Below, in pieces: positions 2 to 29,239 of a stretch of DNA of 64,000 nt. The stretch is from Paracoccaceae bacterium. Lineage in GTDB: Bacteria > Pseudomonadota > Alphaproteobacteria > Rhodobacterales > Rhodobacteraceae. The translations under genes and the position numbers were made by a program. Positions within the stretch are counted from its first letter, which is position 1, and each line of letters begins with the position of its first letter. The notes beneath the pieces are model-generated. The model was not told the DNA's origin. It ran no database searches and worked only from the letters and a program-made list of their open reading frames with translations. The stretch lies in NCBI GenBank assembly GCA_947504705.1, contig CANNIA010000001.1, forward strand, positions 1 to 64,000, given 5' to 3'.

Positions 2-856
2 GCCCTCGCCTCGGCCCTGTCCACCGGCAGGACCAAACTGATCGGCCTTGTCTCGAACAACTTCCACAACCCGGTCTTTCTGGAAATCTTCGACCAGTTC
101 ACCCGGGGCCTGCAGGACCGGGGCCTGCGTCCCCTTTTGGTCAACCTCTCCGGCGGGATGGATGAGGCTGCCGCCGTCCAGATGCTGCGCCGCTACAGCG
201 TGGATGGGGTCATCGTTGCCAGCTCGACCCTGCGCGGCGATTTTGCTCGTCAGTGCAAGGCTGCAGGCCTGCCCGTCGTCCATTCCTTCGGTCGCCGCTC
301 TGACCGGCCCGAGGTCAATCTGGTCGGTGTCGACAACCGCGCCTGTGGCAGGCTGGCGGCCTGGACCCTGATGGAAAGGGGCTACCGGCGGATCGCTTTC
401 CTTGGCGGCCCCGAAAGCGCCAGCTCGACCGAAGACCGCCTTGCCGGGTTTCGCGAAGAGGCCGCCCGCCATCCCGGCGTGTCCGTCTCCGCCAGCTTCG
501 CCAGTGCCTATTCCTTCGACGCAGGCCGCGCCGAGATGCAGCGCCTTCTGGCCGCTGGCCCCCCGGCCGAAGCGTGGTTCTGCGGGGACGATGTCCTATC
601 CATCGGTGCCCTCAGCGCCTTGGCCAACCACGGCCTGAGCGTGCCGCAGGACGTCGGCATCATTGGCTTCAACGACATGGAAATGGCCCGCTGGGCCAAC
701 ATCAACCTGACCACGATCCGCCAGCCGATAGCCGAGATTATCGCCGCCAGCATCGACCTTGTGGTTGCGTCCGTTGAAAACGAAGAACTGCCACCATCTA
801 CACGACTTTTCGATTGCTCGGTGGTCGACCGGGGGACACTAAGGTCCAGCGCCTGA
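2..856 (+). CDS. LacI-family transcriptional regulator, 5'-truncated by window edge
   Basis: About 284 residues are visible. The reading frame is open from base 2 and the true start lies outside the window, so the N-terminal helix-turn-helix is missing. What remains is the sugar-binding-protein-like effector domain of LacI/GalR regulators: it opens with TKLIGLVSNNFHNPVF, then shows GVDNRACGRLAAWTL, RIAFLGG and AWFCGDDVLSIGAL, and ends with DVGIIGFNDMEMARW and LTTIRQP, all typical of the family. Such proteins bind palindromic operators with a central CG and release them on binding a sugar. The ligand cannot be read from the sequence. The only good LacI-type operator I see is 10.7 kb away, between the inositol gene arms, so control of that locus is a guess. 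Confidence 0.9.
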   Translation, partial: ALASALSTGRTKLIGLVSNNFHNPVFLEIFDQFTRGLQDRGLRPLLVNLSGGMDEAAAVQMLRRYSVDGVIVASSTLRGDFARQCKAAGLPVVHSFGRRSDRPEVNLVGVDNRACGRLAAWTLMERGYRRIAFLGGPESASSTEDRLAGFREEAARHPGVSVSASFASAYSFDAGRAEMQRLLAAGPPAEAWFCGDDVLSIGALSALANHGLSVPQDVGIIGFNDMEMARWANINLTTIRQPIAEIIAASIDLVVASVENEELPPSTRLFDCSVVDRGTLRSSA

Positions 857-874
857 CTTTTTCGGCCATTTCAG

Positions 875-898
875 GTTGGTCGGATCGGCTAGACCAAC
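875..898 (+). terminator. possible hairpin after the LacI gene
   Basis: A 7-bp inverted repeat (GTTGGTC, 10-base loop, GACCAAC) begins 18 bases after the LacI stop. No T-run follows it, so it is only a weak terminator candidate. It lies between the convergent LacI and sulfotransferase genes. Confidence 0.3.
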
Positions 899-938
899 GG
901 CTTCGCAGTGATGGTCAATTCTCTGCCCGATCAAGGCG

Positions 939-1796
939 TTAACCATTCAGATCAGCAGCACGTTCACCGACATAGGTGCGGATGTCGGCGATGTTAGACA
1001 CGCGGGAACTGCTGACTTGCGGCCGCGTCGGCGCAACAAAGTCAGCCGGAATATCGGCATACTGATCGATGAACCGAAAAATCGCCCTATACTGGTCACG
1101 CCAGGCGGCAGAGATCAGGCCCTCATAGGTCACGGAATGGCTACGGACACCAAGCGCGTCCATTACGGTGCGGGCGTTGTCACTGGCGTTACGCAACTGG
1201 ATGGCGCGGGCCAGAACATCTCTGGGCGAAAGTCGAAGTTGGTTGGCGGCAACTTCCTCACCCGCCTTTACAAGATATTCGCCGTTGTCTTCGGCCACCA
1301 TGAGCGAAATTGCCTGAGCTACCTTGTCGCGACGGGTCAGGTGGAGGAATGGAATGTTCAGCTTGTTCAGTTCTTCAAGAATGACGGGCACCGCAACGGG
1401 AACCTGCATCGCGGCATTCACGCCAAAGGCATAGGCCTGAGGATATTTGATGTCGAGAATGATGCCGCGCCGTTCGGGCATTTGTCGATAGAACCGCGCC
1501 AGAAAATGATGAACGGCCGCATGACCGTCCGTCATCAGGGATGGCTTTGGCCCGCCCTCTGAAAGATATGACTTCAGCGTATAGCCGTCTTCGGGGGCGA
1601 AGCCGTGGTTGAAAGGCTCGGCCGGGGCAGCCATCGAGGCCAATCGCGCCAGCGAAAGCTTAAGCATATGCGATCCGGACCGAAAGCTTGACAGCAAAAC
1701 GACGCTGCGCTGGAAGTCCCTATAGTCTAACCGGGGTGGTCGATCATCGGTTTCCACCGCAGCGGCAGGCTGCATAAGAAGGTCCTTGCTGTTCAT
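939..1796 (-). CDS. Stf0-type sulfotransferase
   Basis: The product has 285 residues. It starts its catalytic domain with LLSSFRSGSHML at about residues 33-44, which fits the 5'-phosphosulfate loop of PAPS-dependent sulfotransferases of the Stf0 type (trehalose and polysaccharide sulfation). A second family feature is FLHLTRRDKVAQAISLMVA near residue 150. It therefore probably moves a sulfo group from PAPS to a carbohydrate hydroxyl; the acceptor is unknown. It is the last gene of a minus-strand run with three glycosyltransferases, a small protein and an outer-membrane-like protein. It starts 15 bases after the upstream stop. The context suggests sulfation of a surface or secreted glycan. Confidence 0.8.
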   Translation of the reverse strand: MNSKDLLMQPAAAVETDDRPPRLDYRDFQRSVVLLSSFRSGSHMLKLSLARLASMAAPAEPFNHGFAPEDGYTLKSYLSEGGPKPSLMTDGHAAVHHFLARFYRQMPERRGIILDIKYPQAYAFGVNAAMQVPVAVPVILEELNKLNIPFLHLTRRDKVAQAISLMVAEDNGEYLVKAGEEVAANQLRLSPRDVLARAIQLRNASDNARTVMDALGVRSHSVTYEGLISAAWRDQYRAIFRFIDQYADIPADFVAPTRPQVSSSRVSNIADIRTYVGERAADLNG

Positions 1797-1811
1797 CCCC
1801 GTTATCCGGGT

Positions 1812-2546
1812 CTAGAACACCGTGCGCAACTGCAGTTCGAAATAGTCGACATCAACCGGCTTGTTGCCACCAACCTGTTGTTCCGCACCTGCTGCAGTTG
1901 CCTTGATCTCGAACTGATCACCCACGAAGTAGACCGCAGACAGGCCGACCGCTTTGCGTGAATAGTCGCCTTCCGAGACATGATTTACAGTGGGTCCCAG
2001 GCGCAGGTTCGAAGACAAATCAAACAGATAAGTCGCGGAAAGATAGTCAGCAGCGACACCATCATGCTCTGCAAGTGCCTGGAAAGTGCCCGCACCCACT
2101 GGACTATATTCAAGCTCGACTGAAACAAATTCACCCGTGTCTGAAGTATCATCAGGCGAGTTCAGCGTGACCGGACGCACATCAACGGTGCGATGGCTGA
2201 TACCACCGGTAAGCGTCAGTGTCGTCATGTCAGAAACCGGAATGCCATAGGATAAGAGCGCCCGGTACGTTCTTCCGGTCCCAGTTCCGGGGACGTTGTT
2301 ATAGTTCGTGTCATACGTGGTCATCGCAGCATCAAACCGGAACCGCAAGCCACCGACCGCATTGCGTTCTGTGCCGCCAATGCCGTCCGCAGCGCCATGA
2401 CCCAAATCGCCGCGAAGGCTAAGCATATAGAAATTCGACCCGTTTCGATCAACATTGCCAATTACAAGCGCTTCGAAATCCTGCGCGCATGCCCATGCCG
2501 GAATCGAGACTATGGCCGCAAGCAGCGCCATCGGTGCATATTTCAT
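1812..2546 (-). CDS. putative outer-membrane beta-barrel protein
   Basis: The product has 244 residues and is not assigned to a named family. I chose the ATG at 2546, not the longer frame, because GAGGAG lies about 9 bases upstream and the new N-terminus is a clean signal peptide (MKYAPMALLAAIVSIPAWACAQ). The rest alternates polar and hydrophobic residues in short strands and ends in LQLRTVF; a terminal Phe is the usual barrel-assembly signal. The general look recalls alphaproteobacterial BcsS-like envelope proteins, but I cannot confirm this. It lies between a small unknown gene and the sulfotransferase, so a role in export or anchoring of the glycan made by this cluster is possible. Confidence 0.7.
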   Translation of the reverse strand: MKYAPMALLAAIVSIPAWACAQDFEALVIGNVDRNGSNFYMLSLRGDLGHGAADGIGGTERNAVGGLRFRFDAAMTTYDTNYNNVPGTGTGRTYRALLSYGIPVSDMTTLTLTGGISHRTVDVRPVTLNSPDDTSDTGEFVSVELEYSPVGAGTFQALAEHDGVAADYLSATYLFDLSSNLRLGPTVNHVSEGDYSRKAVGLSAVYFVGDQFEIKATAAGAEQQVGGNKPVDVDYFELQLRTVF

Positions 2547-2557
2547 CGCTGCTCTCC

Positions 2558-2893
2558 TCAGATGTTTATTAGCCGCGCCGAACCAGTCGTCGCGCAAGGT
2601 TGAAAGTCTACGCTTCCCACATCGGCCTGAGAACCATACTGGCCAGCAGCCGAGTCCGCGGCGCTCGCATCAAGATCACGCAAGCGACAGAAAGCCTCTT
2701 CGATCTCCGAAAGGTCGCCCCCACTCAGAATGAAGCTCGTATAGGCTTCGACGGTGTTCTCACTTGTAGCCTGGTCAAATCCCGTAGAGGCGAACCCCGT
2801 GGATGCAGCACCCGACATACCAAGGCCAAGAAGTATGTTCCGCGCGCCATGGAAAAGCCTATAACCCAGTCCCGCTTTGTCCTTATCGCTCAT
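2558..2893 (-). CDS. small hypothetical protein in the glycan cluster
   Basis: The product has 111 residues and I do not recognise it. The start is well supported: its ATG overlaps the upstream stop as ATGA, and the last codons of the upstream gene form an AAGGAGGAAGCG ribosome site. The N-terminal third has a hydrophobic, glycine-rich stretch (NILLGLGMSGAASTGFA) that could be a poor signal or membrane segment after a basic start. The rest is acidic with two Cys (FCRLRDL and FQPCATTG). It is translationally coupled to a glycosyltransferase and sits 11 bases before the barrel-like gene, so it is probably part of the same system. Confidence 0.7.
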   Translation of the reverse strand: MSDKDKAGLGYRLFHGARNILLGLGMSGAASTGFASTGFDQATSENTVEAYTSFILSGGDLSEIEEAFCRLRDLDASAADSAAGQYGSQADVGSVDFQPCATTGSARLINI

Positions 2894-5217
2894 CGCTTCC
2901 TCCTTCTGGATCTAGGCGCACTTGGAACGCTCACGCGCCCTGCCGCCGAATCCCCCCAGTTTACTGCACCGCGAATCAGTCCCACTGATTGCAGATGTCT
3001 TGAACCAGAATAGGTTACGCTGGCATGCGAAGTCAAATTGCTATCGACATTTCTTTTCTCAAGTGACGATTTCAGGATGCGGTAGAAGCGCGCACCCTGA
3101 AAATGTTCCTGCCGATCGACAGCTTCTGCGACGCGGTCGCGGATCGCACCGATGAATTTGTAATGCATCAGGGCGACTGTCACGTCCGCCACCGGCAGAT
3201 GCGTATGCTGGTGATTGTTCGCAACATAGGCCAAATCGGGAGCCATCTTTACCAAGGGCGACTTGGTCATCAAGAGACTGCGTCCGGTCATGCGCGCCCG
3301 CACACCGCCCTTGACGAAATGATAGGGTGGCAACTCACAGCGCATCCAGACATAGTCGGTGTCGATGTAACGGCTGGCCTCAAACCCGTTCTCTTCGGGA
3401 TCATCGGCAAGCGCATCGGGATAAATGTCGATCATGCAGCCGCCAGTGGCGGCAAATCCGCGACTATCCAGATACGTGACGAAATCACGAAGGCTTCGCC
3501 CTTCGTCCATGCCCGGAAAAACCAGCGCTTCGTCCATATCCAGATGCAGGCACCAATGGCCGACACCGAACCGTCGCATCAGGTGGTTGGCCCAGAACAC
3601 TCCGCAACCAGATGCGGCAAAACTGCCCGTATTCCGGAAGGTCGACACATCGGGCTGGGTCAGCAGGTATTCAAAGGTACCGTCAGTTGAACCATTGTCG
3701 CAGAAGAAGAAGTGTTGAACGCCAAGTTTCCGGTAATAGCTCAGGAACCACTCCATATACTCCATGCCGTTAAACACGGTGACGAAGACAAGAATGTCGT
3801 CCGGGTGCCCGTCATATCGAACGGCAATCTCGTCTGGAAATGACGATCGGGCGTCCAGCGCAATATGAGCACTGTCAGCCAGATACCGCTTCCAGCCCGT
3901 TTTCGCTTCGTCGTCACGCCCGGCTCGCGCAAGGAAGTATAGACCGAACGGCGCAAGCACTGCCGCTTGAACCAAGCCCGTCGGCAGCGCGTCATAGAAG
4001 GCGCGGGCTTCGTCATCGCGATCCAAAGCGATAAACAGCCGCAAATGCAAGGCGATCAGGCCGCTGTCGTCCATCGCATCGGGAACTATACGCGCAACAA
4101 TCTCATGCGCCCGAAGTAACAAAGCGGGGTCCGTTTCGTAATAATACGCAAACAGGGCATACATAATGTAAGGCCCAGGAAACCGGACTCCATCAGCCTC
4201 AAGCATGGCAAGAAAAGCCGCGACGTCGGCGCCTTTCGGATTTTGGCAGGCGGCGCCGAACTGGATGATCATCCAAGTCCAGCTCGAACTTTCACGAACC
4301 GCTTCGGTCAGTCGCGCGGCCGTCTCGGCTTCCCCTTGGTCGATGGCATGATTGCAAAGCACTTCGACAAGTTCGGGAACATCCGGATAGCGCTCGTCTA
4401 TCGTGGAAAGCACGGCCCCCAGGGCCAGTGCGCGGTCGCAATGCTGCGCGGCATGCATTGCTTGGGCATAAAGTGAGACGGCAAGGGGGCTTTCCTCCAA
4501 CCATAGCAGTGCAAGATCAAGGGCTTCGTTGAAGCGCCCCCGTTCATTCAGAAGCGCAAGCTTCAGCACGCGGTAGTTTTCCGAATTGGGGGGAAGCATC
4601 TGTGAAAGCGCATCCAGCCGCTGCAGGGCAGCCTTCGGACCCTCCTCGATCTGGCAAAGGCGGACATCCAGCACCGCCATTTGGGCTGTCAGGCCCGTTT
4701 CGGCAAGTATCTTCGTGTGGGTTTGCCGAGCTTTTGCGGTCTGACCCCAGGAAAGAAGCGCAGCGATCAGTCGGGTATGCCATGTCGCGGCATCGCCCTT
4801 GGCAGCCTGGATCGTCGTGATGGCCTGCCGCGCGCGCGTTTCGTCACGAAGCCCAAGTGCGATCTGCACCTCAATGATTGCCCGGGCGTCTGCAGTCATC
4901 GCTGTGTCTGGGGTGTCGCGCAAAACAGAATCCGCGCCAACATGGTCGTGCGACCAGATCAAACTGCGCGCCAGATCAAACCGATGCGCCGGCAGGTCGG
5001 AAACCACCACAAGGCGCCGGCAAATCCTTACTGACCAACGCAGATCGCCAATCGATCGCACTTTTTGCAGGGCGCTTTCCAGAACGGAAACCTCAGCCTC
5101 CGCAGCGATCATCTGGTCAACGTCCACGCCTTCCGCCATCAGTCGGCCAAAGCTTTTGCCGGTGGCCATGGCTTGCGACAGCGAATAGAGCATCCTTGCG
5201 TCCTGAACGTTCCTCAT
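2890..5217 (-). CDS. large glycosyltransferase with helical-repeat N-terminus
   Basis: The product has 775 residues. Roughly residues 1-450 are alanine- and leucine-rich helical pairs resembling tetratricopeptide-like repeats. From about residue 455 a GT-A domain of the Glyco_tranf_2_4 / family 92-like type follows: ILVFVTVFNGMEYMEWFLSYY, FFFCDNGSTDGTFEYLL and the metal-binding LHLDMDEALVFPG. It should transfer a sugar from a nucleotide donor in the cytoplasm; donor and acceptor are unknown. Both ends overlap neighbours by ATGA, so it is coupled to the upstream glycosyltransferase and the downstream small gene. The C-terminus (RSRRRKR) doubles as the ribosome site of the next gene. Confidence 0.85.
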   Translation of the reverse strand: MRNVQDARMLYSLSQAMATGKSFGRLMAEGVDVDQMIAAEAEVSVLESALQKVRSIGDLRWSVRICRRLVVVSDLPAHRFDLARSLIWSHDHVGADSVLRDTPDTAMTADARAIIEVQIALGLRDETRARQAITTIQAAKGDAATWHTRLIAALLSWGQTAKARQTHTKILAETGLTAQMAVLDVRLCQIEEGPKAALQRLDALSQMLPPNSENYRVLKLALLNERGRFNEALDLALLWLEESPLAVSLYAQAMHAAQHCDRALALGAVLSTIDERYPDVPELVEVLCNHAIDQGEAETAARLTEAVRESSSWTWMIIQFGAACQNPKGADVAAFLAMLEADGVRFPGPYIMYALFAYYYETDPALLLRAHEIVARIVPDAMDDSGLIALHLRLFIALDRDDEARAFYDALPTGLVQAAVLAPFGLYFLARAGRDDEAKTGWKRYLADSAHIALDARSSFPDEIAVRYDGHPDDILVFVTVFNGMEYMEWFLSYYRKLGVQHFFFCDNGSTDGTFEYLLTQPDVSTFRNTGSFAASGCGVFWANHLMRRFGVGHWCLHLDMDEALVFPGMDEGRSLRDFVTYLDSRGFAATGGCMIDIYPDALADDPEENGFEASRYIDTDYVWMRCELPPYHFVKGGVRARMTGRSLLMTKSPLVKMAPDLAYVANNHQHTHLPVADVTVALMHYKFIGAIRDRVAEAVDRQEHFQGARFYRILKSSLEKRNVDSNLTSHASVTYSGSRHLQSVGLIRGAVNWGDSAAGRVSVPSAPRSRRRKR

Positions 5218-7133
5218 GCCGCGATCAACTCCATCACGCGGCGCGGCGCCTGGCCGCTGGCGTTCATCACCCGCTCATAAAGCGTTGGCAGAAAGCCATC
5301 TCCCTGTGGCGGCTCGGAAAGCCCAAGTCCGATCAATCGCCAGGTCTCAGTATAAACATGCAGGTTGTGGGCTTTCTGCAATACCGGCAAATGACGGGTT
5401 GCGCCGAAAGGTTGCAGCAATCGGCCGGTTTCCATCCATCCGATCGGATTCAGGAAATGCGGTGGCAGAACCTGATAGCCCTGCTGCCCCCCCTGCCCCA
5501 TCAGTTCCGCAAGCAGTTCCGGACCTATCCGGGCAAAATGCATGGTACCGCTCGCCAGTATTTCCTCGGCAGCAACCAGGGCCTGACACTGCATGGGGTC
5601 GTTTGCTGGTGCGGCCATCATCGCCCCATTCGGACCAATCAGACCCGCATCCGTCCATTCCGAACAGACAAGGCGATGACTTGCAGGTTCAAAGGCGCGC
5701 AAGTTCACAACATCGGTATCGGTCCAAAGTCCGCCGATCCGCGCCAAAAGCGCATAACGGAAGAGATCAGAAAACGCCCCCAGCGACCCTTTGTGCGCGC
5801 CGCTGCCATCCCCTTCGCGAAAGATCGCGCTGCGCGGCAAGACTGCAGTCGCATCGCAGATTTCAACACCCTCCGGCACCCCTTCGGGTTCGTCATAGAC
5901 GTAAAGCCGATAGCGCCAGCCGTTCAGAAGATAGGTCTTCATGGAAAGCTGCTCGATCCAGCGCAGTCGCGGCCCGACCCAAAGTGATTGCGCCAGTGGC
6001 CTTCCCTTTCCCGGGGCCAGCTCCGGTGAAGCAAGTTTGTCTACCGGGGTGCCACCGTCTTCAAGAATGCGCCGCGTCATGCCGATCAGCGATGCCCGAC
6101 CCCGCAAGAACCATGGCGACTTGCTTCCAAATCGCACATGATCGACGGCTGCACGGGCGTTGTCGTGATCCCCGGTATTTGCAAGTGCCATCGCACGAAG
6201 GCAGACAGCAGCATTTCGATGGTCGCGATGGTCCAAAAGCGGCTCGGTCAGGTCCAGCACCATAGGCCAGTCACCCAGCGCGACACAAAGACGTGCCCGC
6301 ATCAACTTCCGGTCGTCAACCGCTTCAGGTGCGGCAAGCGCGTCGTGCAGGTCTACGGCAGCTTGTATCAAGCCGTTGGTCTGCGATGCCCCCAGAAGAT
6401 AGGCCGCAATCCGCTCCCGTTCACGGACCCCGGTCAACTCACGCGCCAAAGTAAAGGCCTGTGCCATGTCCGATTGACGCAGGATCATCAAATAGACGCC
6501 GATCAACGGCTCCAGATCCGTCCGCCCGACCTGTAGTAAAAGCGCCGGTCCACGGGTTTCGGCCGGATCTCCACCAAGTTCGGACCAGCGGCGGGCAAGC
6601 CCCTGATACTGCCAGTAATCGGGAACGAAACCGGCATCCTTGCGCAAAAGATGAACAAAGATAGCCTCAAGCTGCACTGGATTGCCCCCGGCAAAACACC
6701 AGGAAACCGCTTGATACTGAAGCCCGAAATCGGCTGTCGGAAGGTGATCCCAAATGGCCATCGCGAGACTTTGGGAAACCTCGGTCGCACCGATATGCAC
6801 TTCAGCAGTTTCGGCCATCTGGTAAGCCGGCCAGATGTTGCCCGAAGCGCGCGCCGCTTCCAGCGCAAAGTACCAAGATCCAACCGCGTCAAGCCGTTCG
6901 GTCAATCCGGCAAAGCGCTGCGACCAGATCCGCCGCCAGAATGTCAAACCCAGCCTGTGTTCGGCCGACGTCAAGTCCGTCAGCGGCAGATCCAAAAGCT
7001 GCCGCTCAGCCGTCGCGAAATCGCAAGCGTCCAGCAGTTTGGCGATCTCGATGAATCGAGAGGGGTTGATCTTCGCCGTCCCGCGCGGACGCCAAACCTT
7101 CGCGATAAGCTTGGAAAGGAAACTGCCGACCAT
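5214..7133 (-). CDS. glycosyltransferase with DXD motif (GT32-like) and helical N-terminus
   Basis: The product has 639 residues. An alpha-helical repeat region of about 370 residues comes first. Then PLAQSLWVGPRLRWIEQLSM, FSDLFRYALLARIGGLWTDTDVV and a long tail mark the sugar-binding DXD glycosyltransferase / capsular polysaccharide synthesis fold. The catalytic metal site is the DTD in GLWTDTDVV. This architecture (repeats plus glycosyltransferase) is shared with the next gene although the catalytic domains differ, which suggests a common scaffold. Its stop overlaps the next start as ATGA. The likely role is building a surface glycan; substrate is unknown. Confidence 0.82.
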   Translation of the reverse strand: MVGSFLSKLIAKVWRPRGTAKINPSRFIEIAKLLDACDFATAERQLLDLPLTDLTSAEHRLGLTFWRRIWSQRFAGLTERLDAVGSWYFALEAARASGNIWPAYQMAETAEVHIGATEVSQSLAMAIWDHLPTADFGLQYQAVSWCFAGGNPVQLEAIFVHLLRKDAGFVPDYWQYQGLARRWSELGGDPAETRGPALLLQVGRTDLEPLIGVYLMILRQSDMAQAFTLARELTGVRERERIAAYLLGASQTNGLIQAAVDLHDALAAPEAVDDRKLMRARLCVALGDWPMVLDLTEPLLDHRDHRNAAVCLRAMALANTGDHDNARAAVDHVRFGSKSPWFLRGRASLIGMTRRILEDGGTPVDKLASPELAPGKGRPLAQSLWVGPRLRWIEQLSMKTYLLNGWRYRLYVYDEPEGVPEGVEICDATAVLPRSAIFREGDGSGAHKGSLGAFSDLFRYALLARIGGLWTDTDVVNLRAFEPASHRLVCSEWTDAGLIGPNGAMMAAPANDPMQCQALVAAEEILASGTMHFARIGPELLAELMGQGGQQGYQVLPPHFLNPIGWMETGRLLQPFGATRHLPVLQKAHNLHVYTETWRLIGLGLSEPPQGDGFLPTLYERVMNASGQAPRRVMELIAA

Positions 7134-7186
7134 AATCTCACTTTGCCATGGCTAAAAGGTCTGTGCGGCAGTGTGCCGCGATGCTC

Positions 7187-8173
7187 TCACCACGCATTGT
7201 CGTGGTCAACTACACCAGAAAGATAGTCGGTTTCATACAACTGAAACGACTGCTCGATCTTGTTCTGGATCATGCCAATCGCAGGAACCGCACGAAAACT
7301 GGCCAGCATTTCGTCAAGGCTCGGCTTCAACGCAAGGATAGAGCGGTCCTCCACATCATTGCAGTTCGCCGTCGCATAATGCTCGTCCTTATAGCCCTCA
7401 CGGTCGGTTTCGGCCTTCTGCGGTGCCATGCCTCCAACTCCGCGCCGATGCTTCATCGCAAAGCAGGCACGCGACCGGGTGAAATAATGGTTCATCTGCA
7501 CCTGCTCATAGCTTGTGTCCTGCGGTTCGAACGCCGCTATTTGCCCCTGCTCACGCCACTTTGCGTAGATGGGCAGTTCCGGATCAATGTCGGTCAACTT
7601 AGCGGAAACGAATGGCCTTCCGTTTGACCAATAGTCGGCTGTCATCTTCGGTGTAAGGACGCCCAAGAAGTCGACTTCGGGCCCGTACCGCAACAATGTC
7701 TTAACGACGCGGTTTCTTGGATTCTGATCGGCAGCCGCACGACAATAGACGGGATCGATGCTTCGGCCGGAAAACCTTGCTTGACCGGCATCCCCGAAAA
7801 GCCGCCAGGGCACCAGAATCCCCTGTTTTTGCTCAAGCAGGCCAAGCAGGTCATCCAACCGTCGAGATCCGAATTTGATGTTCAGAAATTCGTCCGGGTC
7901 CGACAACATGATCCAGTCACCGGCTTTCACCCGACCCGAGCGGCGCAGCATCCAGGCCGCGTGGCCTTGTGGTGCGCTTTCCGCGGGGTCATGGATGTGG
8001 TGTTCGACAAGTCCCTCAGCCGCCAGTGCCGCCAAAAGCCGGTCGGTGTCGTCGGTCGAGTTGTTCGAGTACACGATCACCGTGTCGAAACCGATCATGC
8101 GCTGAAAGGCCACCCATTCCAGCAGAAAGGGGGCTTCATCCTTGACGACGGTAAACGCGATCTTGTCGCCCAT
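7187..8173 (-). CDS. glycosyltransferase family 2-like (Glyco_tranf_2_4)
   Basis: The product has 328 residues from the ATG at 8173. A GTG four codons upstream is in frame, but the ATG places the first beta strand (KIAFTVVKDEAPFLLEWVAF) at the usual position. Family features are VIVYSNNSTDDTDRLL and the metal site WIMLSDPDEFLNI. It lacks the long helical N-terminus of its two neighbours and is the first gene of the minus-strand cluster, 53 bases upstream of the next start. It probably adds a sugar in the cytoplasm; donor and acceptor cannot be read. Confidence 0.83.
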   Translation of the reverse strand: MGDKIAFTVVKDEAPFLLEWVAFQRMIGFDTVIVYSNNSTDDTDRLLAALAAEGLVEHHIHDPAESAPQGHAAWMLRRSGRVKAGDWIMLSDPDEFLNIKFGSRRLDDLLGLLEQKQGILVPWRLFGDAGQARFSGRSIDPVYCRAAADQNPRNRVVKTLLRYGPEVDFLGVLTPKMTADYWSNGRPFVSAKLTDIDPELPIYAKWREQGQIAAFEPQDTSYEQVQMNHYFTRSRACFAMKHRRGVGGMAPQKAETDREGYKDEHYATANCNDVEDRSILALKPSLDEMLASFRAVPAIGMIQNKIEQSFQLYETDYLSGVVDHDNAW

Positions 8174-8330
8174 TACTCCATCCACGGTGTCAGTGGCACG
8201 TGACCCAAGTTCTATGATTGCGCAAGGGCGTCAAGGGCAATGACCATCCAAGGCTGTAAGAACAAGGGCAGACGTTTCCTAAGGCCAAGCAGAACGTCCC
8301 TCAGGCATCACATAAACGTGACAGCGGAGA

Positions 8331-8356
8331 GGCGCGGGCCCCGGAAGTCCCGCGCC
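8331..8356 (-). terminator. GC-rich hairpin after the minus inositol arm
   Basis: An 8-bp perfect inverted repeat, GGCGCGGG and CCCGCGCC with a 10-base loop, lies just past the stop of the dehydrogenase gene at 8364. The minus strand has no long T-run after it, so termination may be partial or factor-aided. Confidence 0.45.
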
Positions 8357-8363
8357 TGACGGT

Positions 8364-9497
8364 CTACCGATACATCGGCGGCCGCGCCTCGACCCAGGCG
8401 CCGCCCGCCTTGACTGACGCCACCGCCGCATGAACCGCTGCAATCGACCGCACCCCGGCGGATGCCAAAGGTAATCCGTCCCGCTTCACCCCGCGAATGC
8501 TGTCGGCCAGCTCGCAATAGATATTCGCCACCGCCAGCGGAAAGCCTTCGGGATGGGCAATCGCCACCCGGCTCAGGCGTTTCGCTTCATCATAAAGCCC
8601 GGCCTCGCCCTTTTCGATGATCTGTGTCCGCCCACCGACCGGCGTATAGATCAACTGGTTCGGCTGTTCCGAGGCCCAGCGCAGGCCGCCCGTTTCCCCG
8701 AACACCTGAATGTCGAACCCATGCTGCCGCCCGATGGCCACGGATGAGGTCCACAACCGCCCAACCGTCCCCCGCCCCATGCGGAAGTTGACCATCGCGT
8801 CATCCTCCAAGACCCGACTCGGGATGGTCGAGGCGAAGTCCGCTGAAAGCTTCTCAACCTCATCATCACAGATGAAACTCGCCATATGCAGCGCATGAAT
8901 GCCGCAATCGGCGAACTGGCCGGAAACCCCGGCCATGGCGGGGTCATAGCGCCAGCGGACGCGCGGGTTGTCGGCGTCGGTCGCGTCGCCATGATGGCCG
9001 TGGCTGAAGTTGGTCACCACCAGCCGCACCTTGCCGATATCGCCCGCCCGCACCATGGCGCGGGCCTGACGGATCATCGGATAGGCCGAATAGCAATAGT
9101 TGACCGCGCAAATCCGCCCGGTCCGCGCAGCGATGCGGACGATCTCTTCGCCCTCTTCCACCGCCACCGTCATCGGCTTTTCACACAACACGTGGAACCC
9201 GGCCTCAAGGAAAGCCTTGGAAATCTCGAAATGGGTCGAATTCGGCGTCGCCACCGTCACCAGATCCACCCGATCCGCCCGCCCCTTTTCGCCCGCCAGC
9301 ATCTCGCGCCAGTCGCCATAGGCGCGGTCTTCCGCTACCCCATGCTTCCGCGCAAAGGCCCGGCCTTCCTCGGGCCGGTGGTCAAAAGCCCCAGCCACAA
9401 GGTCGAAATGCCCATCCGCCAAAGCCCCCAACCGATGCGCCGGGCCAATCTGACTGCCCTCACCGCCGCCGACCATTCCCCATTTCAACCGTGCCAT
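8364..9497 (-). CDS. Gfo/Idh/MocA-family NAD(P)-dependent oxidoreductase
   Basis: The product has 377 residues. The start at 9497 is chosen because AAGGGGG lies upstream and the Rossmann fold begins at once (MARLKWGMVGGGEGSQIG). The catalytic EKP motif appears in VLCEKPMTVAVEEG. Members oxidise or reduce sugars and inositols at a ring hydroxyl. It is the last gene of the minus arm of the inositol locus, 10 bases after the TIM-barrel gene. It could act on a scyllo- or chiro-inositol isomer or on a keto-inositol. The exact substrate is unknown, and an iolG/iolW-type symbol would be a guess. Confidence 0.85.
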   Translation of the reverse strand: MARLKWGMVGGGEGSQIGPAHRLGALADGHFDLVAGAFDHRPEEGRAFARKHGVAEDRAYGDWREMLAGEKGRADRVDLVTVATPNSTHFEISKAFLEAGFHVLCEKPMTVAVEEGEEIVRIAARTGRICAVNYCYSAYPMIRQARAMVRAGDIGKVRLVVTNFSHGHHGDATDADNPRVRWRYDPAMAGVSGQFADCGIHALHMASFICDDEVEKLSADFASTIPSRVLEDDAMVNFRMGRGTVGRLWTSSVAIGRQHGFDIQVFGETGGLRWASEQPNQLIYTPVGGRTQIIEKGEAGLYDEAKRLSRVAIAHPEGFPLAVANIYCELADSIRGVKRDGLPLASAGVRSIAAVHAAVASVKAGGAWVEARPPMYR

Positions 9498-9507
9498 GCC
9501 CGCCCCC

Positions 9508-10398
9508 TTAAAACCCGAGTGATGCCAGATAGTCCCGGTTCGCCTTCGCGTCGTCCATTGGCCGGACGTCCAGCGTCGGGTCGCAATCCTGTTCGACCGT
9601 GCACCAGCCTTCAAAGCCAGCGTCCAGCAAGATTTGCCGCACGGCCGGGAAGTCCACATCCCCCTTCCCAAGGTTGCAGAAAATCCCCTGCCCGCAGGCG
9701 TCATAGAAACCGGTCCGGTTCGCGATGACCCGCGCCTTCACGGCAGGGTCGATGTCCTTGAAATGCATATAGCTGATCCGCCCGATATGGCGGTGCATGA
9801 ACGCCACCGGATCGAACCCGGCATAGGAATGGTGCCCAGTGTCGAAACAGATCTTCAGGATCTTCTCGTCCACCTCGCCCAGCAGCCGCTCCAGCTCCGG
9901 CTCGAAATCGATGAACCCCGCCGCATGGGCGTGGATGCCGACCGTCAGCCCGTACTCCTCAGCCCCCATCCGGGCAACCGTGGCAATCCGATCCCGGAAC
10001 GCCGCCCATTCCACAGCACCCATCTGCTCGGCCTCAGCCGCCCGCCCCGCCGTCGGCGCACGGCGCGGCGAGATGGAATCGATCAACACCAAATGCCGCG
10101 CCCCATGCGCCACCAGCGCCTTGCAGGTCCGGCGTGAGGCGTCCATCACCTCATCCCAGGCACTCGGGTCGTGGAAGGGTCGGAACACCACCCCGCCAAT
10201 CAGCGTCAGGTCATGGCGCGCCAAAGCCTCGCCCAAGACCCCGGCATCCTCGGGCATGAACCCGATCGGCCCCAGTTCGATCCCCTTATAGCCTGCCCCG
10301 GCGCATTCCTTCAGCACCGTTTCCCAAGACGGATTGCGGGGGTCATTTGCGAATTCCACACCCCAGGAACAGGGGGCATTGCCGATCCGAATGGTCAT
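9508..10398 (-). CDS. TIM-barrel sugar isomerase/dehydratase, IolE-like role
   Basis: The product has 296 residues from the ATG at 10398, which has GAGG 7 bases upstream; the longer frame has no support. The sequence opens TIRIGNAPCSWGVEF and contains KGIELGPIGFM, CFDTGHHSYAG and YMHFKDI, the metal-binding TIM-barrel pattern of the xylose-isomerase-like / IolE / IolI superfamily. Classical IolE (2-keto-myo-inositol dehydratase) opens differently (a GINP-like motif in the versions I know), so the name is not certain. No other candidate for the dehydratase step lies in this locus, hence I infer that function or an inosose isomerase. Confidence 0.7.
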   Translation of the reverse strand: MTIRIGNAPCSWGVEFANDPRNPSWETVLKECAGAGYKGIELGPIGFMPEDAGVLGEALARHDLTLIGGVVFRPFHDPSAWDEVMDASRRTCKALVAHGARHLVLIDSISPRRAPTAGRAAEAEQMGAVEWAAFRDRIATVARMGAEEYGLTVGIHAHAAGFIDFEPELERLLGEVDEKILKICFDTGHHSYAGFDPVAFMHRHIGRISYMHFKDIDPAVKARVIANRTGFYDACGQGIFCNLGKGDVDFPAVRQILLDAGFEGWCTVEQDCDPTLDVRPMDDAKANRDYLASLGF

Positions 10399-10405
10399 TT
10401 GGTCC

Positions 10406-11533
10406 TCATGTCTTGGGAACAGCCCGCCAGCGCCCACCCTCGGACGACTGGTGCGCGGTCTCGATCAACTGGCTGACGGCAAGCCCGTCACGGAAGGTGG
10501 GCCAGACTTGGCTGCCACTGGCAATGGCGGTCAGAAAATCCTTGGCCTCGATGATGATCTGGTCCTGATAACCGGTGCCATGGCCCGGCCCCTGACAGAA
10601 GGCCAGATAATCGGGATGCGCAGGCCCGGTCAGGATGCGGGTAAAGCCCCGCGTCGCCTCTGGCCCTTCGGCCCGATACAGCCAGACGACGTTCTGATCT
10701 TCCTGATCAAAGCGGATGCTGCCCTTGGTGCCATGGATTTCATAGGCATAGCCCATCTTCCGACCCGTCGCCGTCCGGCTGGTGTAAAGATGCCCCATAG
10801 CCCCGCCCTCAAAGCGCAGCATGATCTGGGCATGGTCATCATTCGTCACCGCTTCCGGGCCATTCGGGCCGGGACGAGTGGCATGAACTGTTTCGATCCG
10901 CGCCGAAAGCTCGGCCACCGGCCCCATCAGGGCCAGCATGCAATTGATCGGATGCGGGGCCAGATCCCCCATGCAACCATTGGCGCGGTCCCTGGTCCGC
11001 CAGGTCGCGGGGATTTCGGGATCGGCAAAGAAATCCTCGGTATGCTCGCCCCGGAACCAGGTCATGCGACCAATCGCGCCCTCGGCCAAAAGCTTCCGCA
11101 CGAACTGTGTGGCCGGAGTGCGCACATAGTTGAACCCGATCATGTTGATCTGTCCACTGGCCTCCGCCGCCGCAACCATCGCCTTGCCATCCGCCAGCGA
11201 TGCCCCCAATGGCTTTTCGCAGAACACCGGCTTGCCAGCCGCAAACGCCGCCTCGGCAATCGCCCGGTGCGTCGCCTGCGGGCTGGCGATCACCACCGCC
11301 TGAACCTTCGGGTCCGCGACCAGCTCTTGCCAATCCTTCGCAGCGCGCTGAAACCCGAACGCCGCCCGATACCGCTCGGCCGAGGCCGGCGACCCCGCCG
11401 CCACCATCTCCAGCCGGGGCCGCAGCGGCGTATCAAACACCGCCCCCACCGCCGAATAGGCCACCGCATGCGCCTTGCCCATGTAACCGCCGCCGATGAT
11501 GCCTATCCCAATCTCGGGCCCGATTTCAGCCAT
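10406..11533 (-). CDS. Gfo/Idh/MocA oxidoreductase, probable inositol dehydrogenase
   Basis: The product has 375 residues. I use the ATG at 11533, which has GGGAGGGG upstream and leads straight into IGIGIIGGGYMGKAHA, the NAD-binding loop. The catalytic pair of the family is seen in VFCEKPLGASLADG and in the HPINCML region. It is the first gene of the minus arm and starts 23 bases from a perfect LacI-type operator shared with iolD. The placement opposite iolD makes myo-inositol 2-dehydrogenase activity likely, giving 2-keto-myo-inositol. A related glucose- or galactose-type dehydrogenase cannot be excluded. Confidence 0.82.
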   Translation of the reverse strand: MAEIGPEIGIGIIGGGYMGKAHAVAYSAVGAVFDTPLRPRLEMVAAGSPASAERYRAAFGFQRAAKDWQELVADPKVQAVVIASPQATHRAIAEAAFAAGKPVFCEKPLGASLADGKAMVAAAEASGQINMIGFNYVRTPATQFVRKLLAEGAIGRMTWFRGEHTEDFFADPEIPATWRTRDRANGCMGDLAPHPINCMLALMGPVAELSARIETVHATRPGPNGPEAVTNDDHAQIMLRFEGGAMGHLYTSRTATGRKMGYAYEIHGTKGSIRFDQEDQNVVWLYRAEGPEATRGFTRILTGPAHPDYLAFCQGPGHGTGYQDQIIIEAKDFLTAIASGSQVWPTFRDGLAVSQLIETAHQSSEGGRWRAVPKT

Positions 11534-11555
11534 TCCAGCCCCTCCCAGATATCTC

Positions 11556-11573
11556 TTTGCAACCGGTTGCAAA
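11556..11573. promoter_or_regulatory. perfect LacI-type operator between divergent inositol arms
   Basis: TTTGCAACCGGTTGCAAA is an exact 18-bp palindrome with a CCGG centre, the usual form of LacI/GalR-family operators. It lies 23 bases from the start of the minus-strand dehydrogenase and 69 bases from the start of iolD, so one bound dimer could control both arms. Confidence 0.75.
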
Positions 11574-11641
11574 AACCTTATGCTGTCTTCCATCGCCCCG
11601 CAACTGCCTTTCTGCGGCGGTGCTGCACAGGAGCATGATGG

Positions 11642-13522
11642 ATGACTCGGACCGAAATCTCAAACGGCACCATCCGCCTGACCGTGGCCCAAGCCATCGT
11701 CAAATGGCTCATGGCCCAACACATCCTGATCGACGGCGTGGAGACGCGGATTTGCGGTGGTGGGTTCGGCATCTTCGGTCACGGCAACGTGCCCTGCCTG
11801 GGTGAGGCGCTTTATCCCGTCCGCCACGAATTTCCGCTGTACCGGGGCCAGAACGAACAAAGCATGGGCTTCGCCGCAGCCGCCTATGCCAAGTACCACC
11901 TGCGCCAGCGTTTCATGTTCTGCACCGCCAGCGCGGGCCCCGGAACCGCGAACCTGCTGACCGCTGCAGCCTTGGCCCATGCCAACCGCCTGCCGATGCT
12001 GATGCTGTGCGGGGATACCTTCCTCACCCGCCTGCCCGACCCGGTCCTGCAACAGCTTGAACATTTCGGCAATCCGACCCTTGGCGTGAACGACGCGTTC
12101 AAAGCCGTCACCCGCTACTGGGACCGGATCACCCATCCCGCCCAGATCCTGCAATCCCTGCCCGCAGCCCTAGCCACCATGCTTGACCCCGCCGATTGCG
12201 GCCCGGCCTTCCTTGGCCTGCCGCAAGATCTGCAAGGCTGGGCCTATGACTATCCCACGGCTTTCTTCGCCCACCGCACCCACCACATCCGCCGCCAGTC
12301 ACCCGACGAAACCGAACTCGCAAACGCCATCGCCGCCCTGCGCGCCGCCCAGCGCCCGCTGATCATCGCCGGGGGCGGCGTCCAATACTCCCGCGCAACG
12401 GCCGAGCTTGCCGCCTTCGCCCATGCCCATAGCATCCCGGTCGTGGAAACCATCGCTGGCCGTGCGAACCTTCTGTCTGATGACCCGATGAACATCGGCC
12501 CCATCGGCGTCACGGGTTCCAACAGCGCCAACGCCACCGCCGCCCGCGCCGATGTGGTGCTTGCTGTGGGCACGAGGCTTCAGGATTTCACCACCGGCTC
12601 CTGGACCGCCTTCGCCCCCGGCGCCAAACTCATCACCCTGAACGTTGGCCGCCACGACGCAGCGAAGCACGCAGCCCAACCCGTTGTCGGCGACGCCAAA
12701 CTCGGCCTCCTCGCCCTCGGCGCAGCCCTCGGCCCCCACAAAGCCCCCGCCGACTGGCTGGCCTTCGCGCAAAGCCAGCGCCGCGACTGGGACACCTATG
12801 TCGCCACCAACACCGCCCCTGGCAACCGCCCGAACTCCTACGCGCAAGCCATCGGCGTGGTGAACGCCCTGTGCCACCCCCAAGACCGCATCGTCGCCGC
12901 CGCTGGGGGCCTTCCCGCCGAAGTTACCGCCAACTGGCGCACACTTGGCCTTGGCACGGTTGACGTCGAATTTGGCTTTTCCTGCATGGGCTATGAAATC
13001 GCCGGCGGCTGGGGCGCCCGCATCGCGCAATGCGAAAAGCACCCCGACCGCGACACGATCGTCTTCACCGGCGACGGCTCATACCTATTGATGAACTCCG
13101 ACATCTACTCCGCCGCCCTGACCGGCAAGAAGCTGATCATCCTCGTCCTCGACAACGGCGGCTTTGCGGTGATCAACAAACTGCAGAACAACACCGGCCA
13201 GCCCAGCTTCAACAACCTGATCAAGGACTGCCCCACCGTCACCGCTCCCTTCGCCGTCGACTTCGAAGCCCATGCCCGCGCCATGGGGGCCGAGGCCGTG
13301 ACCGTCGCCACCCCCGCCGAACTGGCCGAAGCGTTCATGCGCTCCAAAACCTCGCCCAAGACGCAAGTCATCGTCATGCAGGTCGACCCCTACGAAGGCT
13401 GGACCGCTGAGGGCCATACCTGGTGGGAGGTCGGCACCCCGCAAATCTCAACCAACCCGCAGGTCACCAAGGCCCACGAAGACTGGGAAGCCGGCCGCGC
13501 AAACCAAAGGCCCGGCCTCTGA
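11642..13522 (+). CDS. iolD: 3D-(3,5/4)-trihydroxycyclohexane-1,2-dione hydrolase
   Basis: The product has 626 residues, the normal length for IolD, a thiamine-diphosphate enzyme that opens the ring of the diketo-inositol intermediate to give 5-deoxy-glucuronate. The N-terminal domain has RICGGGFGIFGHGNV and FPLYRGQNEQSMGFAAAAYAK, with the catalytic Glu in QNEQ. The C-terminal cofactor motif starts at TGDGSYLLMNSDIYS and ends near LDNGGFAVIN. AGGAG lies 9 bases before the ATG. It heads the plus arm, and its stop shares bases with the iolC start (TGATG). The LacI operator is 69 bases upstream. Confidence 0.95.
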   Translation: MTRTEISNGTIRLTVAQAIVKWLMAQHILIDGVETRICGGGFGIFGHGNVPCLGEALYPVRHEFPLYRGQNEQSMGFAAAAYAKYHLRQRFMFCTASAGPGTANLLTAAALAHANRLPMLMLCGDTFLTRLPDPVLQQLEHFGNPTLGVNDAFKAVTRYWDRITHPAQILQSLPAALATMLDPADCGPAFLGLPQDLQGWAYDYPTAFFAHRTHHIRRQSPDETELANAIAALRAAQRPLIIAGGGVQYSRATAELAAFAHAHSIPVVETIAGRANLLSDDPMNIGPIGVTGSNSANATAARADVVLAVGTRLQDFTTGSWTAFAPGAKLITLNVGRHDAAKHAAQPVVGDAKLGLLALGAALGPHKAPADWLAFAQSQRRDWDTYVATNTAPGNRPNSYAQAIGVVNALCHPQDRIVAAAGGLPAEVTANWRTLGLGTVDVEFGFSCMGYEIAGGWGARIAQCEKHPDRDTIVFTGDGSYLLMNSDIYSAALTGKKLIILVLDNGGFAVINKLQNNTGQPSFNNLIKDCPTVTAPFAVDFEAHARAMGAEAVTVATPAELAEAFMRSKTSPKTQVIVMQVDPYEGWTAEGHTWWEVGTPQISTNPQVTKAHEDWEAGRANQRPGL

Positions 13523-28861: not shown

Positions 28862-28890
28862 TTGCGCCCCTGCCCCGGCCCCCCTATATT
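28862..28890 (+). promoter_or_regulatory. promoter of the tmRNA gene
   Basis: TTGCGC (28862-28867), a 17-base spacer and TATATT (28885-28890) form a sigma-70-type promoter. The expected start is about 28897, at the beginning of the tmRNA acceptor piece. Confidence 0.6.
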
Positions 28891-28896
28891 GACCCT

Positions 28897-29216
28897 GTCG
28901 GGGGCAACCCCGAATATGGCGATAAACGCACCTGTAATAATCGGCTCGGACCCGGGGGCGGTACCCGGCGACTCCACCAGACTTTCCCGTTCATTGCGGG
29001 CGTGTGGGGTCGAAATAGGATCGACGAACGACCAAAGAGGCCAGCTTTTGCTCGGTGAGGTACCACCGTTATCGGTCCAAGATCACAGTTGCCAATGACA
29101 ACCGTGCTCCGATGGCGCTGGCCGCGTAAGCGGCTCGCAATATCAAAACTAAGTCCTTGCGGTTAGCCCCGTAAGGCGGGGCCCGCCGGAGCCTGGCAAC
29201 AGAATCCGGCACTTTC
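28897..29216 (+). ncRNA. ssrA: two-piece, circularly permuted tmRNA (alpha type)
   Basis: The order is permuted. First comes the acceptor piece ending in a T-arm and ACTCCACCA (CCA at 28977-28979). A spacer follows, and then the coding piece opens GGGGTCGAAATAGGATCGACG at 29006. The tag reading frame is at 29091-29129 and encodes ANDNRAPMALAA followed by TAA. The tag is added to stalled peptides and targets them for ClpXP degradation. This arrangement is known in alphaproteobacteria, where the precursor is cut into two RNAs. A promoter precedes it. The 3' end is approximate; a GCCGGA/TCCGGC stem closes near 29210. Confidence 0.93.
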
Positions 29217-29239
29217 ACCCTTCCCGACGCAAAGGCTCG

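Follow-up and report, generated by a model that had tools for sequence, protein, structure and literature searches.

Background

To our knowledge, few genetic systems for the sulfated glycans of bacteria have been described. Capsule and exopolysaccharide operons of the Wzx/Wzy or ABC types resemble the locus analyzed here in that glycosyltransferases and modification enzymes are grouped in an operon-like run, but our locus is devoid of a polymerase, a flippase, an ABC exporter and an outer-membrane export lipoprotein. The known members of the KdgM/NanC group of acidic-oligosaccharide porins import sugars; they are reminiscent of the barrel protein of our locus in having 12 strands, at sequence identities of 5-11%. 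BcsS is an outer-membrane protein of cellulose operons, whereas no cellulose synthase is found among the six genes considered below. Stf0-type sulfotransferases, including trehalose 2-sulfotransferase (NF047724), bear a borderline family likeness to the sulfotransferase of the locus and keep other gene neighbors, and the likeness does not imply trehalose as a substrate. Two of the glycosyltransferases recall Caulobacter FlmG, a cytoplasmic alphaproteobacterial protein in which N-terminal TPR-type repeats are likewise joined to a C-terminal glycosyltransferase; flagellin, its acceptor, is bound there by the TPR domain on its own, and the catalytic half is described as GT-B (PMC7591256). They differ from FlmG in that Pfam points to Gly_transf_sug (gene 2) and PF13704 (gene 3) for their catalytic halves, and also in that the locus codes for two such enzymes together with a sulfotransferase, a barrel and a small exported protein. 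Clusters for synechan and other sulfated exopolysaccharides share the theme of bacterial polysaccharide sulfation (PMC8205485).

A six-gene cluster between two convergent genes

The window, i.e. the whole stretch of DNA that was analyzed, comprises the first 64,000 nucleotides of contig CANNIA010000001.1 from a Paracoccaceae bacterium. As stated in the preliminary description, it contains a run of six genes in one direction: all six ORFs lie on the minus strand and are transcribed from position 8173 down to 939, and we number them genes 1 to 6 in that order. The ATGA overlaps that had been ascribed to the run are present at two of the five junctions (both -4 bp, on either side of gene 3; genes 1 to 6 are spaced by +53, -4, -4, +11 and +15 bp), the other three being gaps. 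Spacing alone suggests that the six genes might be co-transcribed; in scans of the cluster, promoter-like sites (4 versus 2.5) and terminator-like sites (8 versus 8.2) were not commoner than in shuffled sequences. Pfam searches recovered no polymerase, flippase or ABC exporter among the six genes, and the cluster is therefore not an ordinary capsule operon, as had been proposed.

The six genes occupy an inserted island (857..8363), recognized by its GC content and by comparison within the genus, between the convergent genes for a LacI-type regulator (ending at 856 and truncated where the contig begins) and a Gfo/Idh-type oxidoreductase (ending at 8364), which are separated by 7,513 bp. In 25 of 31 genomes of the same genus the best matches of these two genes adjoin each other, also convergently, 0 to 251 bp apart; in the remaining six (G004, G005, G006, G011, G018 and G029) the pair lacks close matches. 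Compared to the nearest genome (G023), about 7.5 kb stand in place of 81 bp. The sulfotransferase occurs in one of the 31 relatives, and an uncultured Rhodobacterales bacterium (Loclat_bin-14305; hereafter G013) carries the module elsewhere, its own LacI-Gfo site being empty. At 57.3%, the GC content of the island is below the 63.1% of the remainder of the window and below that of each of 193 overlapping segments of its size (lowest 61.7%). Exact repeats of at least 10 bp are absent between its ends. A phage or plasmid origin was considered and rejected: the matches of gene 2 in 14 plasmid records, one phage record and two viral contigs are all confined to its catalytic half or to under 45% of the query, and gene 6 has no match among plasmids.

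Conservation of a five-gene module

Genes 2 to 6 recur in the same order in seven loci, with protein identities of 26-88%. These are the window, G013, L051 (Pseudooceanicola antarcticus), L052 (Rhodobacterales bacterium RIFCSPHIGHO2_02_FULL_62_130), L053 (= G161, a genome labelled Maritalea mobilis), L054 (= G514, Roseibacterium persicicum) and G953 (= L096); the G013 module is spread across two short contigs and is presumed to be contiguous. A gene 2 profile detected five of these (G013, L051, L052, L053 and L054) in 84,980 genomes, a scan that used two short peptide patterns and hence sees near relatives only, G953 not being among its matches. G953, with all five genes in order, was added by the sulfotransferase profile from 394 genomes of the family. 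Searches of 390 genomes from the order with genes 5 and 6 also led to G161 and G514, and the surroundings of these matches hold genes 2 to 6. The gene 5 search of this set gave seven matches, those in the window genome, G161 and G514 being genuine; the other four, from a single genus, were discarded as weak matches (E-values in the 1e-4 range) to parts of frames about 2,900 residues long. At E-values up to 0.001 the gene 6 profile matched 17 of 385 genomes class-wide and 55 of 394 family-wide, counts that are not additive because the order, class and family sets overlap. Below 1e-30 it matched the window genome alone in the class and the window genome together with G953 in the family, no other match being stronger than 2.6e-16. 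G977 and G905 (E = 2.6e-16, 7.5e-15 and 1.7e-12) were rejected as carriers of the module, the other four core genes being absent.

Identities to the window proteins are 46-88% for gene 2, 39-79% for gene 3, 26-76% for gene 4, 35-83% for gene 5 and 32-84% for gene 6, with the G953 copies at 29-37%. Gene 1 is present in three of the seven loci (the window, L052 and, as a C-terminus, G013). The earlier proposal that the six genes form one system hence holds for genes 2 to 6, kept in order throughout, and falls short for gene 1, which is better viewed as an optional partner. Among 148 relatives a full-length gene 2 is found in the window genome and G013 only, both of which also have the sulfotransferase; no locus among those examined carries both repeat glycosyltransferases without the barrel and sulfotransferase genes, an arrangement that the preliminary description had named as speaking against its proposal. 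The genes of the module are under purifying selection, with Ka/Ks values of 0.09-0.23 in all seven comparisons with G013 and of 0.07-0.15 in four of the six with L052, namely those for which Ks was computable. In base composition the module of G953 is again GC-poor relative to its flanks (56.9 versus 61.4%), those of L051, L052 and L053 are within 1.3 points of their flanks, and that of L054 is richer.

We conclude that the module is a real, conserved and horizontally moved unit, which occurs in scattered Rhodobacterales, has moved between genera and is optional within one genus. Each of its enzymes falls in or close to a known family, and their combination appears to be undescribed in the literature searched: a search for it, with most subscription journals outside its scope, returned no matching system.

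Glycosyltransferases and sulfotransferase

Gene 1 (7187..8173; 328 amino acids) and gene 3 (2890..5217) both exceed the 27.5-bit cut-off of the GT2-like PF13704 (Glyco_tranf_2_4) family, with 68 bits (E = 1e-18) and 81.7 bits (E = 5.9e-23), respectively. Gene 1 lacks repeats and corresponds to the third, repeat-free glycosyltransferase of the preliminary description. In gene 3, found in all seven loci, the catalytic half is preceded by a TPR-like region whose similarity to TPRs is weak. Gene 2 (5214..7133) is predicted to combine an N-terminal helical-repeat domain with a catalytic half of the Gly_transf_sug/DXD type (GT32-like), an assignment near the cut-off, since it scores 22.6 bits against PF04488 (Gly_transf_sug), just below the threshold of 23, and its G953 counterpart is also below it at 20.4 bits. 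The DXD motif lies within a G-G-x-W-T-D-T-D signature that is invariant in the six aligned members. In the AlphaFold2 model of gene 2, residues 26-334 form helices, mostly with good confidence, in line with the N-terminal repeats expected earlier; past residue 334 there is no confident model, the catalytic half having pLDDT values below 50. The structural matches of the helical part have Z values of 9-11, which for a model made up mostly of helices may reflect no more than a widespread arrangement; a likeness to a type III chaperone was discarded as chance. When their catalytic halves were compared by profile, genes 2 and 3 showed no similarity, in line with the claim that two repeat glycosyltransferases of different catalytic type are encoded side by side. 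A structure search returned no noteworthy solved relatives for gene 1, the catalytic half of gene 2 or gene 6.

Gene 6 (939..1796) codes for a Stf0-like PAPS sulfotransferase. The Stf0 label given to it previously finds a match to PF09037 just above the cut-off (22.6 versus 22 bits, residues 150-227 only) and is borderline, because a six-frame search of its own genome with PF09037 gave 0/1. At E-values up to 1, PF09037 matches all six aligned members, in which residues R39, G41, R155, R156, D157 and S164 are invariant and the PAPS-loop-like and 3'-phosphate-loop-like residues are conserved. The G953 sulfotransferase has no match to any Pfam sulfotransferase family and by eye lacks the RRD triplet. 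The gene 6 profile matched no solved sulfotransferase at E-values up to 0.1, and the score of gene 6 against trehalose 2-sulfotransferase (NF047724) is 13.1 bits, far under the cut-off of 400. The capacity to form PAPS is present, with an APS kinase in all three genomes checked (G000, G013 and G953).

Predicted periplasmic and outer-membrane components

Gene 4 (2558..2893; 111 amino acids) has no match to any Pfam family, in agreement with its earlier listing as a small unknown protein. Judged by eye, it is probably exported in most copies, the hydrophobic core being weakest in the window copy. Its identity is 26-54% among five aligned copies and its Ka/Ks against G013 is 0.11-0.15; it retains a short helical stretch, EAYTxFIL, and in G953 it is detected by profile only. 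A C-terminal motif, R-[LI]-x-x-I, was striking in three sequences and was then dropped: it is lacking in G953, and the six full-length copies end in NI in three cases and in I in five. A likeness to flagellin (19 bits versus a cut-off of 450) was discarded as chance.

Gene 5 (1812..2546), described earlier as barrel-like, is modelled as a 12-stranded barrel (mean pLDDT 79.4, pTM 0.74). The C-terminal phenylalanine, an N-terminal hydrophobic stretch that by eye is a signal peptide and the even number of modelled strands are consistent with an outer-membrane location; the score against OMP_b-brl, 22.3 bits, is below the Pfam cut-off of 28.7. Among the best structural matches of the model is KdgM (Z 17.9, rmsd 2.8, 169 aligned residues, 5% identity), with NanC at Z 16.2, and the autotransporter BrkA equals KdgM at Z 17.8; as autotransporter domains score like KdgM, the fold of gene 5 does not reveal what passes through it. 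Pfam gave no sequence match between gene 5 and the KdgM family. One of the six aligned barrels, that of the relative L048, exceeds the cut-off of PF17036 (BcsS) over nearly the whole profile (28.5 versus 24 bits), and the window protein and the other members have no Pfam match to this family. In G953 the barrel ORF is without an in-frame signal peptide. Taken together, the structural matches of the barrel and the BcsS-like relative suggest that a charged sugar product may pass through the outer membrane or be anchored there, although a fold by itself does not demonstrate a function.

Proposed function

Our leading reading, which we hold tentatively and at somewhat less than an even chance, is that the module is a horizontally moved cassette whose proteins build a short sulfated glycoconjugate and display it. 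It sets out from the observed gene set, gene order, insertion and PAPS capacity and from the modelled barrel and repeat folds, and from these we infer an order of reactions, an acceptor, the sugars, their sulfation, export across the inner membrane and display. Genes 1, 2, 3 and 6 have no clear membrane helix (largest 19-residue Kyte-Doolittle means of 1.14-1.54) and gene 5 has a signal-like start, so sugar transfer and sulfation would most likely be cytoplasmic. There, the glycosyltransferases would add sugars one after another to an acceptor held by the N-terminal helical repeats of genes 2 and 3, probably in the way that the TPR domain of FlmG holds flagellin (PMC7591256), and the sulfotransferase would next transfer sulfate from PAPS, supplied by the resident pathway, onto a sugar. 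The product would then be carried over the inner membrane by machinery that the cluster does not encode, gene 4 might act in the periplasm as its escort or be the acceptor itself, and the 12-stranded barrel could pass the product through the outer membrane or anchor it there. In the fuller cassettes described below, a one-module peptide synthetase may add an amino acid. The conserved gene order, the purifying selection, the juxtaposition of two types of glycosyltransferase with a PAPS-type sulfotransferase, the APS kinases, the barrel with its KdgM and NanC matches and its BcsS-like relative, and the recurrence of GT4 genes suggest such a pathway. Against it stands the absence from the cluster of any polymerase, flippase or ABC exporter, which leaves its way out missing. 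The borderline Stf0 match, the deviating G953 sulfotransferase, the equally high autotransporter scores of the barrel, the poorly modelled catalytic half of gene 2 and the fact that a single copy of the seven adjoins a known polysaccharide gene count against it as well. The glycan nature of the product, its sulfation and its location at the surface, all put forward in the preliminary description, are likewise predictions from gene content. Were they correct, the compact five-gene module would constitute a tractable system for the delivery of sulfated sugars to the Gram-negative surface, where the product may serve as a phage receptor or in adhesion or host contact.

The same repeats could also bind a protein, the likeliest candidates being gene 4 and other exported proteins, in which case the module would glycosylate this acceptor in the cytoplasm and send a sulfated glycoprotein to or through the barrel. 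The presence of repeat domains on two enzymes, the precedent of FlmG (PMC7591256), the absence of polysaccharide export genes among the six and the retention of gene 4 under purifying selection in all seven loci are consistent with this. Nevertheless, gene 4 is short and variable (26-54% identity among five aligned copies) and in G953 does not retain the C-terminal motif, no acceptor site is visible, and Pfam places the catalytic domains in or near families other than the GT41/GT-B type found in FlmG; we regard protein glycosylation as unlikely.

Accessory genes and the peptide synthetase

Additional GT4-type glycosyltransferases, one or two per locus, similar to each other and scoring around the Pfam cut-off, accompany the module in five of the seven loci. 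In L051 they lie inside the run, in L052 and L096 they come after the synthetase and the sulfotransferase, respectively, and in L053 and L054 they are divergent and upstream of the module. In four loci the sulfotransferase adjoins a one-module peptide synthetase that comprises condensation, adenylation and carrier domains. The synthetase follows immediately in the same orientation in L051 and L052, after 3 and 57 bp, respectively, and is convergent with the sulfotransferase in L053 and L054. The four synthetases share 32-44% identity; a thioesterase domain is above the cut-off in two, below it in one and unmatched in one, and a phosphopantetheinyl transferase is encoded nearby in L051 and L054. 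Neither GT4 relatives nor a synthetase were found in the window, and searches for a condensation domain were negative in the window genome, G013 and G953.

The adjacency of synthetase and sulfotransferase, which in two of the four cases lie in tandem, and the two nearby phosphopantetheinyl transferases could mean that the true product is a secreted small molecule, glycosylated, sulfated and bearing an amino acid from the synthetase, with the window copy as a reduced form. We consider this rather unlikely: the core genes are equally constrained in the window genome, G013 and G953, which lack a condensation domain, only two of the four synthetases have a thioesterase domain above the cut-off, and such a product would need neither a small exported protein nor an outer-membrane barrel dedicated to it. 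A further proposal, that the module does no more than add side-chain sugars and sulfate to a resident exopolysaccharide or lipopolysaccharide whose synthesis is encoded elsewhere in the genome, draws on the BcsS-like relative of the barrel and on the G013 copy, which adjoins a priming sugar transferase (PF02397) and is the sole one of the seven beside a known polysaccharide gene; in the flanks of the other six, family-searched in part, no polysaccharide synthesis or export gene was recognized, and we hold this proposal to be improbable. That the genes are mere neighbors devoid of a joint function, each family being common in the order and chance neighborhoods being known to occur, is scarcely credible in view of a five-gene order kept in seven divergent loci and one precise insertion.

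Returning to the sulfated glycoconjugate, one may envisage a mobile, modular assembly line common to the order, a self-contained system for surface conjugates and neither capsule nor classical natural-product pathway, in which the repeat glycosyltransferases and, in the fuller versions, a repeat-tailed synthetase act on a common acceptor to give an amino-acid-bearing sulfated oligosaccharide with its own small periplasmic partner and a BcsS-like barrel as its dedicated outer-membrane exit; in this specific form we think it unlikely. Homology of the repeats to the synthetase tail found no support in profile comparison for gene 2 and a probability of only 12.9% for gene 3, which makes the notion of shared docking repeats speculation. 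Should the synthetase act on the same product, four of the seven loci would offer a case of peptide-synthetase chemistry joined to sugar chemistry. The insertion site, the recurrent GT4-like genes (five of the seven loci) and the synthetase (four of the seven) are observations additional to those of the preliminary description.

Neighborhoods of the island and of related module copies

The sequence at the very start of the window (2-148) encodes the LacI-type protein, beginning with the first residue listed for it. This sequence was found again at the end of contig C23 of the same genome (G000:C23:2-148), which makes C23 the probable left neighbor of the window. On the other side the island is flanked by genes of the inositol-catabolism type (8364-13522), namely two Gfo/Idh oxidoreductases, a TIM-barrel enzyme and a TPP enzyme, which were named mostly by eye and in one case by Pfam. 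The window additionally contains a permuted (two-piece) tmRNA gene (28887-29220, plus strand) with the tag ANDNRAPMALAA.

In the module copy of the carrier genome G953, the barrel ORF (L096 7303-8022, minus strand) is directly preceded by a stop and lacks an in-frame signal peptide, which may reflect either decay or an assembly error. The copy in the uncultured Rhodobacterales bacterium Loclat_bin-14305 adjoins a priming sugar transferase (PF02397; L032 2079-2756, minus strand). The region behind the cluster of Rhodobacterales bacterium RIFCSPHIGHO2_02_FULL_62_130 (L065 9385-11391) codes for an FAD monooxygenase (PF01494) and also for another sulfotransferase, which belongs to a family (PF17784) different from that of the module's sulfotransferase. 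In the genome labelled Maritalea mobilis, the synthetase gene is immediately followed by one for a second protein with adenylation and carrier domains (L066 5115-7328).
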